From contig OX485809.1 in NCBI GenBank assembly GCA_950295325.1, positions 38,595,081 to 38,659,080 on the forward strand: a DNA stretch of 64,000 bases, in the 5' to 3' direction. Every line of letters begins with the position of its first letter. The stretch's first letter is position 1. Shown here piece after piece: positions 3,743 through 58,155 of this stretch. The DNA comes from Polytrichum commune. Its lineage: Eukaryota; Streptophyta; Polytrichopsida; Polytrichales; Polytrichaceae. The translations under genes and the position numbers were made by a program. The notes under the pieces are model-generated. The model had not been told where the DNA came from and searched no databases. It was given only the letters and a program-made list of their open reading frames with translations.

Positions 3743-5978
3743 TCACGTGACCTGACTGCCTCTTAAGGCACTCGACTTCCCAGTCACTGCCTCGCCATCA
3801 ACAAGGAGGCGAGCTTGCTCCTCCGCAATGGACACAATGGATTCCAAGTCAAGCTTACATAATCCTCCACCTTTGGTGCTGGTGGTGGTGTTGTTGCTGC
3901 AGGCGAGCATCCCAAGCTCTTCATCCCCATCCTCGTCATCGAAGAGGATTGGCACAACCTTGTGTCCAAGCTTACTCAATTCGCTGGAACTCGGACACTT
4001 CGAGTTAGCCCTGGCACACTCCGCAGCCCAGTCAATGCGAGATGTGATGAGCAGGATGCTGCAAGCACAGCATATCTGTGCAGCCAGCAAGCCATACCAG
4101 AGCCCTTGGAACCCAATTTTGAGCCAAAAGGCTGACACCACGGCAACCGGTGTGCCAACGATGTAGAAGGAGACAAACATGATCACAGCGGTGACGGTGG
4201 GGCGGGCACTCCCTCGCAGGATACCGCAGCCTGCTGTCTGTGGGCAGTTACCAAGCTCGCAGATGCCAATTAGTGGTAGAACAGCCGCTGTTAATGCAAG
4301 CACACTTGCATCCGAGGTGTACAAAGTTCCCCACTGGTGACGAAAGACGATGGTCCACACCACGCTTACAATCCCCACCGCGAAAGCACAACCCATGGAT
4401 ACAACACTGGCGGTTCGTGCCCGCTCTGGGCGATTCGCACCGAGCTCGTTACCCACGCGAGTTGACACCGAGGAGCCTAGTGACATGGGGATGGTGTACA
4501 TCAGCGAGGTTGTCTGGATCAAAATTGCGGTGGCTGCAACTGCGACTTGGGGATTGGGGAGGTAACCAGCTAGAATGGTCATAATCTCATACCACCACCA
4601 CTCGAGGCAGATCTGCAGGCAGCTTGGGAGTGCAAGGGTTAGCACTGGCCACCACTCACACAGACATGCTAGCGAAGGGTTAACCCATGTGTTCTTGAAC
4701 CTCCCCGAACACATCACATACAGAAGCATGAACGCCACCACATTGAAGTTGGTCATGGCGGCCGCAACTGCCACTCCCGGCACTCCCAGTTTGAATCCAA
4801 AGGCTAGCAAGAGGGTTAGTGGGATGTGGAGCAAAACACCAAGAGCGGAGCACCACATCATCGGCGCTGTCAGACCTTGACACCTGAAATAGTTTCGCAG
4901 CGGTTGCAGCAAACTGTTAGCCAGGAGGTCTGGGAGCGAGTACCAGCAGTAGATGCTGGCCACTGATGTGATTTCTGCGTTTTGGCCGAGAAAGAGCATG
5001 AGGGGCTCCATGTTAGCCCACAGCAAGCTGATGGGTATGCATGCGACAAGAAGGATGAGCACCGTGCGTTGTAACGTCAGCCCCACCGTTTGCCAATTCT
5101 TCGATCCGTAAGCTTGCCCGCAGATTGGGTCCATTCCGGAGGCCAGACCATAGAGCACCGAGTAGCCGGTGATGTTTGTGAAACCGATTGATAGAGCGCC
5201 TCCCGCCAAGCTCGCGCCACCCAACCGCCCCAGGCATAGCACAGACACCATCAATCTGGAGTAGGCAATTCCGTTGGCAACCGCCAGAGGTAGCGCAATC
5301 TTCATGAGCTCCATGAGCTCTTCCACAATCTGCACATCGACAAGTTGCACTAATATGTTTAATGAAACTCCAGCATTCCCAATAACCACTAAATTCAATT
5401 ACGGTGATTCAGAGCTCTCTCTCACACACACACGTACACACACTGGCGGATCAACACAAACAGAAAATTTAAACCTGGTGTGGTTGTTCGCAGAGGATTA
5501 TTCATCGAAGTGGAGGTACCGTCAAAGACTAATGAGAATTTTTATTCTACATATTCGATGAGGGTAGACAAAACTCTGTCTCACACGCACTGGAAGATCA
5601 ATACGAATACATGTTTACGCTTGGTGTGGTTGACGCCAGGAGATTATTCATCGAACTTGAGGTACCGTTTAAGAGGTACTCATTCGTTGAGATTCGTTGA
5701 GGGTAGACCAATGGAAAACTGCAGATTGCAAAGTTGGCTGAATCCAAGTTTTAGAGGGAACCATCACTGTTGGTCGTTCTACTTTGTTTTCAAAATGATA
5801 AAAAAACTGATAGTGCTTGCTTACGCATGCTAAGGTCTCAAGTAGCCAGCGAGGAACAACGAGGCGTTACCTGACAAGGAGAAGGCCACGATTGAATTTG
5901 AGCCTCTCGGGGGTCAATGTCGGATTCATCGTCCGATGACGACGACGGGGGCACCTGCAGGGTAATGGCAATACACAT
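3743..5978 (-). CDS. MATE efflux transporter (DETOXIFICATION/DTX family), two exons
   Basis: Multi-pass membrane antiporter of the plant DTX family, expected to export organic cations, metabolites or hormones in exchange for H+. Exon 2 (3743-5329) alone gives 528 residues. Exon 1 is placed at 5871-5978: ATG at 5978, 36 codons starting MCIAITLQVPP and containing an acidic SSSSDDESD run, then CAG|GTAACG. The 541-bp intron ends TGTGCAG before IVEELMELMKIALP, and the join keeps frame, giving 564 residues. Motifs in that numbering: NITGYSVLYGLASGMDPICG near 88-107, CLEWWWYE near 277-284, STRVGNELGANRP near 325-337, ELGNCPQTAGCGILRGSARP near 394-413, followed by a hydrophilic tail. About 12 membrane segments are visible and the length is normal. 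These motifs fit the DTX48-56 group; a start beginning MC is common there. A single-exon reading starting at 5398 is possible, but its first 23 residues resemble translated intron. Substrate cannot be inferred. Confidence 0.93.
5420..5709. repeat. Imperfect tandem duplication inside the MATE intron
   Basis: Two units, about 5420-5571 and 5578-5709. Shared landmarks are CACAC..CACTGG..GATCAA, GGTGTGGTTG, GATTATTCATCGAA, GAGGTACCGT and GAGGGTAGAC. The second unit is shorter. The duplication makes up over half of the 541-bp intron. Confidence 0.75.
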
Positions 5979-17660: not shown

Positions 17661-18747
17661 CTACACAAATTTTTGCCAACTATAGTTTTTTCCAAAGTTC
17701 AATTGCACTCCACAAGACTAAAATCTAAGTTAGCCTTGAAAAAACATATGAATGTGATGTTTTCACAAATATTGTGTTTCCCAAGAGATGGAAAGAGTTT
17801 CACTCCTTAGAAGATAAGTCTTCTTGATATCATCAAATGTGATTTTTGATGTTGTGTTGTCATGAGTTTCTTCATGAGGTAGACCCCATGGTTGTTGATT
17901 TGTGCCAAGTCTTAGCCCCTTGTTCAACATGGTGTTGCGAGAGTGATGTTGCTTGATTAGCCAAGCAAGAGGAGGGTAGGTGGGCAATGCATTGTTGAAA
18001 GCTCATAGTTAGCTTAAGAGCGTATAATTCCATGGAAAGTTCTCCAAATTCAGGCAACATAATATGATAGGTTGTCGAAGAACGCACTTTGATGTGAGAT
18101 GCCATATGCATCTTCATGCCTCCTCGAAAACCTTCCAATACCTATTGGATTCCCCATGAGACCCAAATTCAACCTGGGTTTGGGGTTGTTGATATTCTCC
18201 GAATTGGCAATGAAATCCATGATTAAAAAGGGAGAAATGCCACAATATTTGAACTTGAATAATCGTATATAGATTCTTTACAAACTTTGAGCAACATTTT
18301 AAATTGAACTTCAACCGATCACCAATCTTTATATCAATATAGAATACCAAGAAAGGGACCCCTCCCATATGGGAGCGAGTTTTGCCAAATTAAGATTATA
18401 GACCATGCACACATAATATGGTGTGTGGATCTTATTTGGCCAACCTTCTTGATTGGAAAACTATACTTGAGTGGTCTACGTCAAGGCTTGTACTCAAAAA
18501 CCAACACCAAAAGACATGTGTCATGATAAGATTTGACTATGTTTTGAAACACTCACAAAACCATGGGTACAATAGGTAGCACAATTGGGAGGGCCTATGT
18601 GATTGTCATACCTTAAAGTGAGGGTGGATCTTCTTTGGTACGCAATGGAAAGAGACCCCTAGGGAATATAGTTACTACTTATAATGAAGAAAGGTGGTTA
18701 CATTTTTATTATCTTTGCTAAGCCTACTATAGTGATGATTCCTATCT
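17661..18747. other. Unassigned DNA
   Basis: Short ORFs on the - strand (17763-18368) match nothing I know and carry no motif. About 18415-18610 shows weak similarity to repeat R8 (CAAAAGACATGTGTC, CACAATTGGGAGG). Confidence 0.3.
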
Positions 18748-18903
18748 GTAATGTAACTATACCTAGTTACCATCCTACGATGACGAGGCGTCCTCAACGA
18801 CGAGGCTAATTGACAATATGATATTGTAAAGTAACTACACCTAGTTGCCATCCTACGACGACGAGGCGTCCTCAACGACAAGGCTAATTGACAATGTGAC
18901 ATT
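18748..18903. repeat. 78-bp tandem repeat, two units, hairpin-forming
   Basis: Units start at 18748 and 18826. Each contains CCTAGTT.CCATCCTACGA, the hairpin GAGGCGTCCTC and GGCTAATTGACAAT. A second small hairpin is AATATGATATT in unit 1 and AATGTGACATT in unit 2, a compensated base-pair change. Confidence 0.85.
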
Positions 18904-19041
18904 TAATGTATACCATGATGACGAGGTTGGGTGTATGGACACCTAGTCATCGACGGTAGTGTCATTGTAAGGTAAATACCAATATTGATGGATAATTGAA
19001 TATTCTAACCACATGTGCCAGTGTGTAAGCGGAGGATGATG

Positions 19042-19420
19042 GGAGCTAGACAACTCCTAGTTGAAGATGGATGGATTGGAGTTAGACAACTCCAGATTGA
19101 CAACATGTGCACTGGAGTTAGACAGCTCCGCATATAGTGCATTGGAATTAGACCATTCCATATTGAGAACATGTGCACATGAGTTAGACAACTCTCGATG
19201 AGGTGCATTGGAGTTGGACCGCTCCAGAATTGGAAAGATGAATGTTATTCATTGGAGTTAGACAACTCTTAATGAATAGATGGATCTAGTTGGAATTAGA
19301 CAATTCCAACTAGAAGAATGAATGGATGAATTTAGTTGGAATTAGACAATTCCAACTAGAAAGAAGGATGGATGAATCCAATTGGAATTAGACAATTGGA
19401 ATTAGACAATTCCAATTGGA
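19042..19420. repeat. Array of ten stem-loops with AGAC-type loops, period about 36 bp
   Basis: Successive palindromic cores: GGAGCTAGACAACTCC (19042), GGAGTTAGACAACTCC (19078), a GGAGTT/AGCTCC pair (19114), GGAATTAGACCATTCC (19144), GAGTTAGACAACTC (19181), a GGAG/CTCC pair with loop GGAC (19210), GAGTTAGACAACTC (19255), then three long stems with arms CTAGTTGGAATT (19286), TAGTTGGAATT (19333) and CAATTGGAATT (19393). Stem sequence changes between units while complementarity is kept. Some units have extended arms, for example TGCACT/AGTGCA around the third and ATTCATT/AATGAAT around the seventh. No ORF of substance. Function unknown. Confidence 0.9.
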
Positions 19421-19450
19421 AGAATGAGATTGAGATAAGAGATGGAAGAA

Positions 19451-19607
19451 GGTTCTAGAAGAACCAAAGATAGAAGATTCATAGTAGAACTAAAAGATAG
19501 AGCTATGAATATGATACTTTTACTATATGTAAAGATAGAAAGTAAAAGTAGTGCTTCGGCATAAGAAGAAGCTCGGGGGAGGAGAGAGGACCTTTGGTCT
19601 CTCTCCT
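19451..19607. repeat. Run of five further stem-loops following the AGAC array
   Basis: GGTTCT-aga-AGAACC (19451-19465); ATTCATAG...CTATGAAT (19477-19510); TACTTTTACT...AGTAAAAGTA (19515-19550); GCTTC...GAAGC (19553-19572); AGGAGAGAG.ACC-ttt-GGTCTCTCTCCT (19580-19607, one bulged G). They sit end to end with little spacer. Confidence 0.85.
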
Positions 19608-19620
19608 ATGGTCGGGTGGT

Positions 19621-19955
19621 TGAGCTTTAACCAAAACATACTTGGTCTATGATTGTTTTGGGTTGATACGTGTTAGTGTGGAAGTTGGTGATAAACCGGT
19701 GAGAGGTTCGTTACACTATCAGTGTGTGTGTTACTATTTAAAGTAACATAGTGCCATAACATTTTATTGAGGATTTCAACTTCTACTAACGAAAGTTCAA
19801 TAGGTTGTTCGGACATTACATTGTAGAACATAAATGACTTTGCTTGGTAAAATATTACATTCCCATTGAATAGTTGTAACATTGCATAACTACGAATAGT
19901 AACATGCACTAATTGGGATAATTAGTGTACCAATGAACAGGGAGAACCGAAGGCT
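19621..19955. other. Unassigned repeat-like DNA
   Basis: No gene. The segment 19920-19955 (ACCAATGAACAGGGAGAACC) resembles pieces near 9210 and 21105 and probably belongs to a dispersed element end. Confidence 0.35.
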
Positions 19956-19978
19956 ACACTAAATATGATATTTAGTGT
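19956..19978. repeat. Perfect short palindrome ACACTAAATA / TATTTAGTGT
   Basis: 10-bp arms, TGA loop; second of three such palindromes. It is followed by GTCACCAATCCTAATTGTG, which resembles sequence at 28935-28970 and inverted sequence near 49260-49310. Confidence 0.9.
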
Positions 19979-20308
19979 CACCAATCCTAATTGTGTTGCT
20001 CAGTACTAATTGTAAACCGCAGTATAGTGTCACCAACACTATATATTAAGCCAACATTCTTTGACATTCCTTGTAATTTTTTTTGGGGGGTTACAAATTT
20101 ACAGTGTTGCAATTGTTGTTACTTACCAAGTGCTTTTTCATCCAAATTGCAATCATCCATGACAATATTTCATCACAAGTTATTGTCAAGAGAAGGTAGG
20201 GTTTTGGCCAATGGATGAACTCATCCATCATCCATGACAAAATTTGTTCACTTATTCATAAAAAAATGTCATCCGAAAAGTTACCATACTGACATTAAAT
20301 ACCATATG

Positions 20309-20331
20309 ACACTAAATATCATATTTAGTGT
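20309..20331. repeat. Perfect short palindrome ACACTAAATAT / ATATTTAGTGT
   Basis: 11-bp arms around a single C; third copy of this palindrome, immediately left of repeat R3 copy 2. Confidence 0.9.
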
Positions 20332-20334
20332 AGT

Positions 20335-21470: not shown

Positions 21471-21996
21471 CACTAGAGTACACTTGTAACAAGGTTGCCT
21501 AGAAGTAACCTAGTAACTAGTACCAACAAATAGTTTAGGAGATGGTTTGTTTAAGGGTGTATTTCCATGTAGGTCACTCGTCCACTAGATTTTAGTGTGA
21601 AGAGGAAAAACCTGACCAAATGTAGGTGGAATATAATGGGGTAGGGTTCGTATGTGCCAACTACAGAGTTGCTCCTATCTTCTCGAATCCATGCCCACCT
21701 AGCTATTCCTAGTTAATCTCCTCCTCCTAGTTAACCAAGGATGGAGTGGTAGACCAACATTGATTTTCTTGAGTCTTCAACGGGTCTCAATCCTTTGGTG
21801 ACCAACACATGTAAGGTGAAGATTCTTTAGTGGGCACGTGGACATCTAGTGGCCCATGCCCGCTGCACTCCACATTCTAGCCGATCACCAGAGTGTGGTT
21901 GGATGGTGGCTTGTGCTTTGACTACATGCGAACACCTCTGACCCACTATTATCAAGACTCCAATGGGCAAGCAACCTACATGGAAACTCACCCTAA

Positions 21997-22333
21997 GGGC
22001 CACTTCACACATGAGACTGAGAGCCCGTGACCATTACACTTCAAGCACTCTCATTGGTGGAAAAGGTGTAGTTGGTCCAAGCTCGCTTAACACTACGCTT
22101 GAGGGACCAACGGAGTATGTGAATGCAAGATGGATGTAAAGTCTACAAGGATTCCTACATGGCATCGAATGGCTCATGTTTCATGGTCACTTGGAGTCAG
22201 TGTCACACTACACTTGAGGGTCCGTGACCACACTACATGATTTCGGAGGTGAGTTGGGACAACATATGGTCGCATTCTTTTAGGCTCTCACAATTTCATG
22301 GTCACAACTCTTGGCTCGTGTGTAAAGTGGCCC
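21997..22333 (-). mobile_element. MITE family R1, copy A (internally deleted)
   Basis: 337 bp, inverted relative to the other full copies, with TIRs GGGCCACTTCACACATGAG and its mirror (CTCGTGTGTAAAGTGGCCC). TAA flanks both sides (21994-21996, 22334-22336). The middle of the about 500-bp family sequence is missing. No coding capacity. The 3-bp TNA target duplication suggests a PIF/Harbinger (Tourist-like) origin. Confidence 0.85.
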
Positions 22334-22374
22334 TAACTTACGTAAAGCATTGGAAACCAGTGCAGGCCACTTCA

Positions 22375-22683
22375 CACACGAGAGTGAAGACCCATGACCA
22401 TTGCATTCTAAGATCTCTCATTGGTCGAAAAGGAGGAGACCGTCCAAGTTCACTTCACACTCGAAGGTGACAATCTAAGGACCCAAGAAAATTATCATGA
22501 AAAAAAAATCTACATGGAAAACTATAAAGAATGTGTTTACGATGTGCTAAAATTTGAGTCATACCGACGACCTCCAAGAGATAAGCTCCGCCCAAATTCC
22601 AAGAGACCATGTTAGCGACACGGCCTTTGGATGAGAATGAAGGGCCCTCACAATTACAATGGTCACGGCTCTTGGCTTGTGGG
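22375..22683 (-). mobile_element. MITE family R1, rearranged copy
   Basis: Starts GGCCACTTCACACACGAGAG and ends in the family's subterminal sequence (CAATGGTCACGGCTCTTGGC), but the middle (about 22480-22600) is foreign to the family. It lies about 40 bp from copy A. Confidence 0.6.
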
Positions 22684-22978
22684 TGTGGGGTTGACGGCTG
22701 CCTACCTTTCCGAACCGATTGGTTATTATAGGTACCACCCCCTACTAGCCACCAGCCCCCACTAGCCTCATAATTATGCCCAAATCCAAAAATAATTTAC
22801 CACCAATCAAATCGCACCCCCTCCCACCCACCCCACACACTTGGGGAGATTCTGGCGGCTCAATTCCACACGCCCTCCTTATTATTATTGCTATTTTTGT
22901 TACTAATATTATGATGAGTATTATCATCATCTCCAAGTCATCACCAAAAATCATTCATCCCATATATACACTAACTAA

Positions 22979-23478
22979 GGCCACTTCACACACGAGCCAC
23001 GAGCCGTGACCATGTAATTGTGAGAGCCCAAAAGAAAGTGTCCAAAGGCCGTCGTCCCAACTCACCTCCAAAATCATGTAGTGTGGTCACGGGCCCTCAA
23101 GTGTAGTGTGAAGTCATATGTGACCGGGCTCTCAACCAAACGCTATTTCAATGAATTTCTATTCATGCGGGTCTTCACACATGATGAAATAGAATAAATC
23201 AATGGTTGTGAGCATTCAGAGTGCCATGGTCTTCCGGTTTTGTGTTAGACCTACTTCCAAGAGGTGGTTCTTGAAAATAGTCCAAGTGACCATGAAACAT
23301 GATGCATTTGATGTCGTGTAGAAATCTATGTGGACTTTACATCCATCTTGCATTCACATACTCCTTTGGTCCCTAAGCGTAGCGTGAAGCGAGCTTGGAC
23401 CGGCTCCGCCTTTTCCACCAATGAGAGTGCTTGCAGTACTACGGTCACGGGCTCTTAGTCTTGCGTGTGAAGTGGCCC
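22979..23478 (+). mobile_element. MITE family R1, copy B (full length)
   Basis: 500 bp, flanked by TAA on both sides (22976-22978, 23479-23481). Starts GGCCACTTCACACACGAGCC and ends CGTGTGAAGTGGCCC. The imperfect TIR extends about 38 bp through GAGCCGTGACCATG. The interior contains two related motifs, CCCTCAAGTGTAGTGTGAAG and CCTAAGCGTAGCGTGAAGCG, a nested subterminal repeat. Confidence 0.9.
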
Positions 23479-23557
23479 TAAGTATCATTACGTGATCACA
23501 TTTTGGATGAAGTTTTTAGGCTCCGTATCATGAGTTATGTCCTCCAATGTTTGGGGA

Positions 23558-57081: not shown

Positions 57082-58155
57082 TCTTTATTTTTTATTTTTT
57101 TAGTTCTCAATCCTTTCCTTCATTGTATAGCAAGAGGGAACGAAGGCTTTTGGTTTAGAGAACACAATGTTGGGATGCACCCAACATCTCTTCATGGTTG
57201 GCTGTCGCAACCCTTGCTAGCCCCCCTTGACAATCTTGCCAATTTTCAATTCTAGCAAAGGTTACGAGCGCTAACCATTCGCATTCCGCCATGCTAATGA
57301 TTAGCTCCTCCTACCCCGGACCTTATAGTTCATAGGAGGGAACCAACCCTCCTACTTTGCTTTCGGGACTCACCCCTTAATTGGTAACCCATTCCTAGAT
57401 GTGGACTTCCATCCATGGAAGTCCAATCCCATGTTGATCATCGCATTGCCGGAGCAACACTACAACAACCCGAACCATACTAGGCAACTATGGCCTCACA
57501 ATGGGCCAATGCCCATGGAGGCCTTGCCGTTCGGCCTCGGGTGGGTGAGGCCACACCACCTCACCCATATAAGCCTCTAGGACTTCACGCGGGGCCCCTA
57601 CCCCACCGTCAACCAACCTCTTGTCTCTCTACCAAGAGTTGGGGCCAAGTGGACATTTTCCTTTAGCCGCTGGGCTAAGAAGCCTCTAGCAGCTTCAGAC
57701 CATCATAACTTCCTTGTATGATGTCCGATGCTAGCAACCAACCACTTCATCTTCATCTACGTTTCACGTAGATGCCGATGGACTCCTCACGTGCCCCATT
57801 TGGGCAAGTAATGAGTACGTTATGCCTCTTTGAACCTTGGCAGTCCCGGGAGTCACTCCCAGGCACTGCTGAACCAGGGCGCTGTCCCGGGACAGCGCCC
57901 CACTCAAATGGCCATAACTCCTAGCTCACACCTCCGATTGAGGTGTTCTTGAGCTTTCTAGAATCACCACGCCATGAGCTACGCATAACTCATGGCCTTA
58001 CCCTTGTGCCTCCTAATCTTCGTGGGTGGGAGGCGTTCCCAACGCCCGGGGCCCTCACCCACACTAGGATCACTTGGGCCCTCTCACCAATGGCGCCACA
58101 AGTCCCGGGTGTCACTCCGGGGTCCCCTTTGTGCCCATGGTGTTTCAGGCACTCC
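57082..58155. repeat. GC-rich inserted block with palindromes
   Basis: 57400-58200 is distinctly GC-richer than its surroundings. It holds a perfect 24-bp palindrome at 57877-57900 (arm GGGCGCTGTCCC), GGGAGTCACTCCC at 57848-57860, and repeated TCCCGGG. ORFs here are weak and not called. It probably is an inserted element, because coding-like - strand sequence resumes on its right. Confidence 0.45.

Follow-up and report, generated by a model that had tools for sequence, protein, structure and literature searches.

Palindromic repeats in the LTRs of plant retrotransposons

The closest described system is the palindromic repeated motif (RM) of Sirevirus LTRs, for instance CACCGGACTGTCCGGTG in OPIE-2 and PREM-2. 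Each 3' LTR contains 3 to 14 copies of the RM, which precede the TATA box; most of the arrays begin 200 to 400 bp into the LTR and span 300 to 500 bp (PMC2829016). Among the Ty1/copia elements compared in that study, palindrome clusters were specific to Sireviruses and absent from the classic elements included there (PMC2829016). Tandem repeats in the U3 region have also been reported for plant LTRs such as that of Tnt1, and a role in transcription was proposed for them (PMC3601003).

The window analyzed here, a stretch of 64,000 nucleotides from Polytrichum commune, harbors ten palindromic cores at positions 19042 to 19413, which share the centre AGAC or GGAC. Like the Sirevirus RM, this array is a multi-copy palindrome with a short centre, and it lies in an LTR upstream of a site that is TATA-like by sequence. 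However, Sireviruses are Ty1/copia elements, and their RM has a CGG-CCG core (except in Tnd-1) and is associated with CpG islands, whereas the array described here belongs to a Ty3/gypsy chromovirus, is AT-rich and poor in CpG (3 CpG in 395 bp, observed/expected 0.22), and combines unit-specific outer arms with an AGAC centre. Since it has neither the CGG-CCG core nor a CpG island nor a Ty1/copia host, the array is not a member of the Sirevirus RM. Tnt1, which is also a Ty1/copia element, resembles our element in carrying tandem repeats in U3, the U3 assignment being a putative one in our case; this likeness is one of description. The first-pass annotation knew of no plant repeat of this form, a view that has to be given up, as the general form has been described in Sirevirus LTRs (PMC2829016). 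An array of this kind in a chromovirus was not found in the literature searched, which included few subscription papers.

A solo LTR of a Ty3/gypsy chromovirus

The array is part of a solo LTR, whose features are as follows:

18742 to 18746, no strand: target-site duplication CTATC, left
18747 to 19715, + strand: solo LTR, 969 bp, TGTAATGTAACT...AGGTTCGTTACA, ends common to copies
18747 to 18902, + strand: 78-bp direct repeat, two copies, at the 5' end of the LTR
19042 to 19413, + strand: palindromic array of ten units, probable cis-region of the putative U3 (from sequence, folding and arm swaps)
19042 to 19057, + strand: unit 1, GGAGCT-AGAC-AACTCC; pair 2 is C-A, broken
19078 to 19093, + strand: unit 2, GGAGTT-AGAC-AACTCC
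19114 to 19129, + strand: unit 3, GGAGTT-AGAC-AGCTCC; U-G at pair 2; outer arms TGCACT/AGTGCA
19144 to 19159, + strand: unit 4, GGAATT-AGAC-CATTCC; pair 1 broken
19180 to 19195, + strand: unit 5, TGAGTT-AGAC-AACTCT; pair 6 broken
19210 to 19225, + strand: unit 6, GGAGTT-GGAC-CGCTCC; pair 1 broken, pair 2 U-G
19254 to 19269, + strand: unit 7, GGAGTT-AGAC-AACTCT; outer arms ATTCATT/AATGAAT, bulge at the join
19292 to 19307, + strand: unit 8, GGAATT-AGAC-AATTCC; perfect stem of 13 bp
19338 to 19353, + strand: unit 9, GGAATT-AGAC-AATTCC; perfect stem of 11 bp
19398 to 19413, + strand: unit 10, GGAATT-AGAC-AATTCC; outer arms CAATT/AATTG; perfect stem of 11 bp
19379 to 19411, + strand: 14-bp tandem duplication, 2.4 copies, which creates an extra half-core at 19384
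19517 to 19551, + strand: TATA-like stretch CTTTTACTATATGTAAAGATAGAAAGTAAAAGTAG, putative promoter, CTATAT at LTR position 777
19580 to 19607, + strand: strong hairpin AGGAGAGAGGACC-TTT-GGTCTCTCTCCT, located 3' of the TATA-like site and perhaps in R or U5
19716 to 19720, no strand: target-site duplication CTATC, right

Comparison of 20 copies placed the shared ends of the element at window positions 18747 and 19715. The termini read TGTAAT...TTACA, and the window copy thus combines TG...CA ends with a 5-bp target-site duplication (CTATC on both sides). Exact 5-bp duplications flank 13 of the 20 copies and two more agree at four of five bases; the copies without a matching duplication include two LTRs from full-length elements and two 5'-truncated ones. 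L023 and L026 are without the 5' part of the LTR. The array occupies LTR positions 296 to 667, i.e. it lies between the LTR start and the TATA-like site at position 777, and therefore most likely falls into U3, as judged from the sequence.

In full-length relatives, the PBS ATTGGTATCAGAGC, presumably of the common tRNA-Met type, is found 3' of the LTR (L024), and the PPT GATGGAAGGGGGAGAT lies 5' of the matching 3' LTR (L029). Open stretches of at least 90 amino acids of the full-length relative were searched separately against Pfam, and four of five gave matches: RVP_2 (1.1e-15), RVT_1 (3.8e-37), RT_RNaseH (6.5e-28), Integrase_H2C2 (3.1e-20), SH3_Tf2-1 (7e-26) and Chromo (1.8e-7); matches to Ty3_capsid and rve stayed under Pfam's cut-off. 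The integrase, as located by Integrase_H2C2, is positioned downstream of RT-RNase H, and the chromodomain is C-terminal. A second full-length copy (5' LTR in L078, 3' LTR in L018) is flanked by CCTTC at either end and carries a PBS and a PPT. PBS, PPT and the order RT-RNase H-integrase-chromodomain are as in plant Ty3/gypsy chromoviruses, and the presence of PBS, PPT and pol domains together with an integrase that follows RNase H therefore identifies the family as a Ty3/gypsy chromovirus, of which the window holds a solo LTR.

Two other assignments were considered. A DNA transposon with TGTAA termini was ruled out by the PBS, the PPT and the pol domains, and a tandem satellite by the dispersal of the element with target-site duplications.

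The window contains further features outside the LTR. A MITE-like element of 380 bp with perfect terminal inverted repeats of 27 bp (19954-20333) lies 234 bp beyond the right target-site duplication of the LTR and has relatives of 78-83% in L015, L016 and L028. A large imperfect inverted repeat at 21993-23482, whose arms of 108 and 94 nt are 85 and 89% complementary, has relatives in L012 and L017 and is perhaps another inverted-repeat element. On the - strand, an uninterrupted open stretch of 551 residues (3746-5398) matches MatE (E 4e-67) and represents a MATE transporter-like gene, and on the + strand an open stretch at 53826-54314 matches COX1 (Pfam E 4.2e-10), perhaps as a nuclear copy of mitochondrial DNA.

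Copy number, age and turnover of the units

A count over the whole genome gave 643 occurrences of the core 16-mer (322 + 321; control, 1), and the TATA-like stretch has 183 matches with at most three mismatches (81 + 102; control, 0). At least 40 places match the full 451-base query (the best 40 of 649 candidates were scored). L011 and L012 are 98.555% identical to the window LTR (955 of 969 positions), the remainder being a 14-bp gap alone. In one full-length copy (L024/L029), the two LTRs differ at 4 of 777 aligned positions, the match to the 3' LTR ending before the LTR end, and those of the second full-length copy (L078/L018) differ at 8 positions and by one 46-bp unit.

A second young family, L079 to L082, has an LTR of about 804 bp, which is 82.2% identical to the window LTR over 686 bp; the 78-bp direct repeat has no match in the LTRs of this family. 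L079 has a PBS, and its 11 AGAC units precede the TATA-like stretch that is also present in the window LTR; L080, L081 and L082 are 99.6-100% identical to L079, and L079 and L082 are the two LTRs of one element without a mismatch over 804 bp. Among the matches listed, promoter stretches of this family lie about 5.3 kb apart at at least five places, of which one pair (L079/L082) was compared on both sides. Thus, two families carry 10 and 11 units, respectively, upstream of the TATA-like site. Both are young, and the element has been active recently.

Unit number changes by whole units: L078 has nine and L018, the other LTR of the same element, has ten, and L073 has 11. Six indels were seen among 17 copies relative to L012, two of them in the last unit. 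This unit has been hit twice, by the 14-bp duplication of the window copy (19379-19411) and by a different 20-bp insertion in L010. Both the whole-unit difference within one element and the two indels in the last unit would fit a functionless palindromic motif that was captured by the LTR and multiplied by slippage or unequal exchange. We regard such a neutral passenger as rather unlikely, since two families, each with recent activity, share the array, and since the arms of a unit pair better with each other than with those of other units in both families (see below).

Layout and folding of the array

The ten palindromes with an AGAC loop, one of them with GGAC, that had been noticed at the outset are present and fold far beyond shuffled sequences. 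The core type is a 16-bp GGARTT-AGAC-AAYTCC with outer arms that are specific to the unit; nine of the ten centres are AGAC, and GGAC is confined to the unit at 19210. A spacing of about 30 to 46 bp had been given, which is right for most steps between core starts; the steps range from 30 to 60 bp, and the last one, of 60 bp, contains an eleventh, half-palindromic core (19384) that stems from the 14-bp tandem duplication. This duplication is present in the window copy and in none of 17 other aligned copies, the 5'-truncated L023 and L026 being left out. Both reported stems, GGAGTT/AACTCC and GGAATT/AATTCC, occur, but several are imperfect, and 53 of the 60 core pairs are Watson-Crick pairs. 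The quoted outer arms were found as well; they differ between units, and the two arms of a unit match each other better than in the arm-swap control. The AGAC centre is also found at other loci whose stems have a different sequence, for example TGGGTT-AGAC-AACCCA in L042.

Compared to 100 dinucleotide shuffles, the fold of 19030-19430 has a z-score of -8.0 as RNA of the + strand, -9.9 as RNA of the - strand and -10.6 as DNA, and none of the 100 shuffles was as stable in any of the three cases. Perfect 6-bp arms with a 4-base gap occur four times in the 401-bp array stretch and 41 times in the remainder of the window; in 500 dinucleotide shuffles of the array stretch, their mean number was 0.13 and the maximum was 3.

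The z-score of the + strand RNA would be in line with a 3'-LTR transcript that folds into ten hairpins, which might act in packaging, stability or the production of small RNAs and whose stems would be under compensatory selection. However, the fold stands out just as much for RNA of the opposite strand and for DNA. A value of -40 kcal/mol has been used as cut-off for miRNA-like structures, and maize Ty3 elements were described there as generally being without an obvious peak of such structures, unlike Copia (PMC10760457). None of the 57 array windows of 110 nt falls under -40 kcal/mol on either strand, which weakens the small-RNA reading. On the + strand of the LTR, the lowest 110-nt fold energy is -37.4, for a segment starting at 19512 that spans the hairpin at 19580-19607. 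Rfam models gave no match at gathering score in 18600-19900. Elsewhere in the window, 110-nt segments starting at 57461, 49061, 57811 and 29411 are under -50 kcal/mol and thus far stronger than the AGAC array.

Pairing of the arms and its origin

In the window array, the own arms of the units are paired at 77 of 120 positions over pairs 1 to 12, compared to a mean of 65.3 (sd 3.7) after swapping, a value that 7 of 5000 swaps reach; in the second family, 2 of 5000 swaps reach the observed value. When pairs 7 to 12 are considered, 24 of 60 positions are paired in the window (swapped mean 17.5, reached by 33 of 5000) and 35 of 66 in the second family (swapped mean 23.2, reached by 6 of 5000). Taken together with the folding results, pairing therefore goes beyond chance and beyond what a plain tandem repeat provides.

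Outer arms that vary by unit type and yet match would also result if quasi-palindromes were continually perfected by template switching at hairpins, either in reverse transcription or in repair. This mechanism is very improbable: in 25 young copies of at least 94% identity, 28 of 1708 paired cells showed a change in one arm and no cell showed a change in both arms, and the two families retain imperfect pairs in the same units. The one-sided changes represent 19 distinct events, of which 11 give G-U and 8 give A-C.

A first covariation run with 182 units yielded 1341 pairs versus 1160 after swapping, with a unit filter that favored paired cores. The analysis was repeated with left-only and right-only unit filters, which gave 334 and 288 distinct units from 50 loci, and compared with a null in which substitutions were redealt along the tree in 300 simulations, the trees being weak as they derive from 36 columns. 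In the left set, 289 of 334 units are matched at pair 3, and in the right set 252 of 288; the mutual information of this pair (p=0.003) ranks second and first, respectively, of 528 column pairs. However, the underlying switch from GGAGTT/AACTCC to GGAATT/AATTCC falls on one double-change branch (null mean 0.3-0.5), and column -7, a flanking position that is not a partner, is linked with both pair-3 columns (ranks 1 and 3 in the left set, 2 and 3 in the right set). Pairs 7 and 9 reach p values of 0.02-0.05 under the same null with its weak 36-column trees. Summed double changes amount to 9 versus 3.8 expected (maximum 10 in 300) and to 7 versus 3.4 (maximum 8), and paired cells exceed the tree null at pairs 3, 5, 6, 7 and 8, which would also suit selected RNA hairpins.

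The tree-aware covariation check thus leaves a modest excess of paired changes, while the headline switch shrinks to one branch, as a neutral origin would also have it. The first-pass annotation had concluded from the paired changes that either selection acts on an RNA or a cruciform, or one arm keeps being copied onto the other; the data do not establish this, as the switch maps to a single branch, a non-partner base is equally correlated and young copies have changed in one arm at a time. Although the pairing itself is real, the covariation mostly reflects inheritance of unit types, and a modest paired excess remains.

Changes were also followed slot by slot in the 34 of 68 sequences that passed a length filter. 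Nine diverged loci contained 10 Watson-Crick and 5 other double changes in 599 cells. Six of the ten pairing doubles were discarded as unit misregistration (two in L046, L030 slot 398, L031 slot 464, and two in slot 652 of d, a diverged 3' LTR in L019), and two in L031 slot 652 were ambiguous on a row-by-row check. Two clean compensations in place are left, a G-C to A-T change at pair 6 of unit 1 in d, with the same state in L079, and a T-A to C-G change at pair 2 of unit 7 in L030. Both speak for RNA hairpins, as do the states at pair 2 in L079, where 5 of 11 units have U-G and two have C-A, and the sum over core pairs of the 334 and 288 related units, where 159 changes make U-G and 118 make A-C. 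Against this, pair 3 in the 643 exact cores of the genome, a set in which many near-identical copies are counted, is matched in 595 cases and mixed in the others, with 20 G-U and 28 A-C, and the events in young copies (11 versus 8) are similarly balanced; no clear wobble preference is seen in either set. The case for a selected RNA is weak, and we consider ten functional RNA hairpins to be distinctly unlikely.

In copies of at least 94% identity, substitution rates are alike in the loop (18/955), the stem (36/2928), the spacer (54/5283) and outside (185/13350), as expected after insertion. In the nine diverged loci, the core changed less than the spacer (81/945 versus 215/1599, p=0.0002), but several of these were picked by exact core matches, which introduces a bias; the difference persists, with the same bias, when the misregistered L046, L031 and L030 are removed (38/635 versus 105/1088, p=0.008). 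In seven loci picked by similarity, core divergence was not lower than that of the spacer (35/749 versus 65/1298, p=0.83). Constraint on the core is therefore not established, and the result for the similarity-picked loci is a further point in favor of a neutral passenger and against a cis-regulatory module.

A putative cis-regulatory module and its meaning

We favor, with moderate confidence, the reading that the array is a repeated palindromic cis-regulatory module in the U3 of a chromovirus LTR, the function being proposed from its position and structure. The solo LTR would be what remained after the two LTRs of an insertion had recombined with each other. Each 16-bp imperfect palindrome may serve as a site for a host transcription factor, probably a dimeric one, and ten such sites could make the LTR promoter stronger or conditional. 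The unit types, which differ in their arms, would have arisen a few times and may have multiplied by tandem duplication (30-46 bp per unit), through slippage or unequal exchange; with few origins and tandem spread, most paired differences would have been inherited and not repeatedly compensated. The fixed asymmetric AGAC centre goes beyond the needs of a simple dimer site and counts against the factor-site reading.

For tandem arrays in general, complementarity of the arms can stem largely from a few old unit types. As CpG effects are nearly absent in the array, cis-regulatory and small-RNA readings would be separable here. That a Ty3/gypsy family shows a Sirevirus-like layout with a motif that is unrelated and poor in CpG points to convergence. 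It is tempting to speculate, though on balance doubtful, that chromoviruses of this plant lineage evolved, independently of Sireviruses, an array of sequence-specific palindromes in which selection maintains the pairing of the stems, either as DNA sites or as RNA hairpins, and that palindromic LTR arrays may thus be convergent in unrelated plant retrotransposons.
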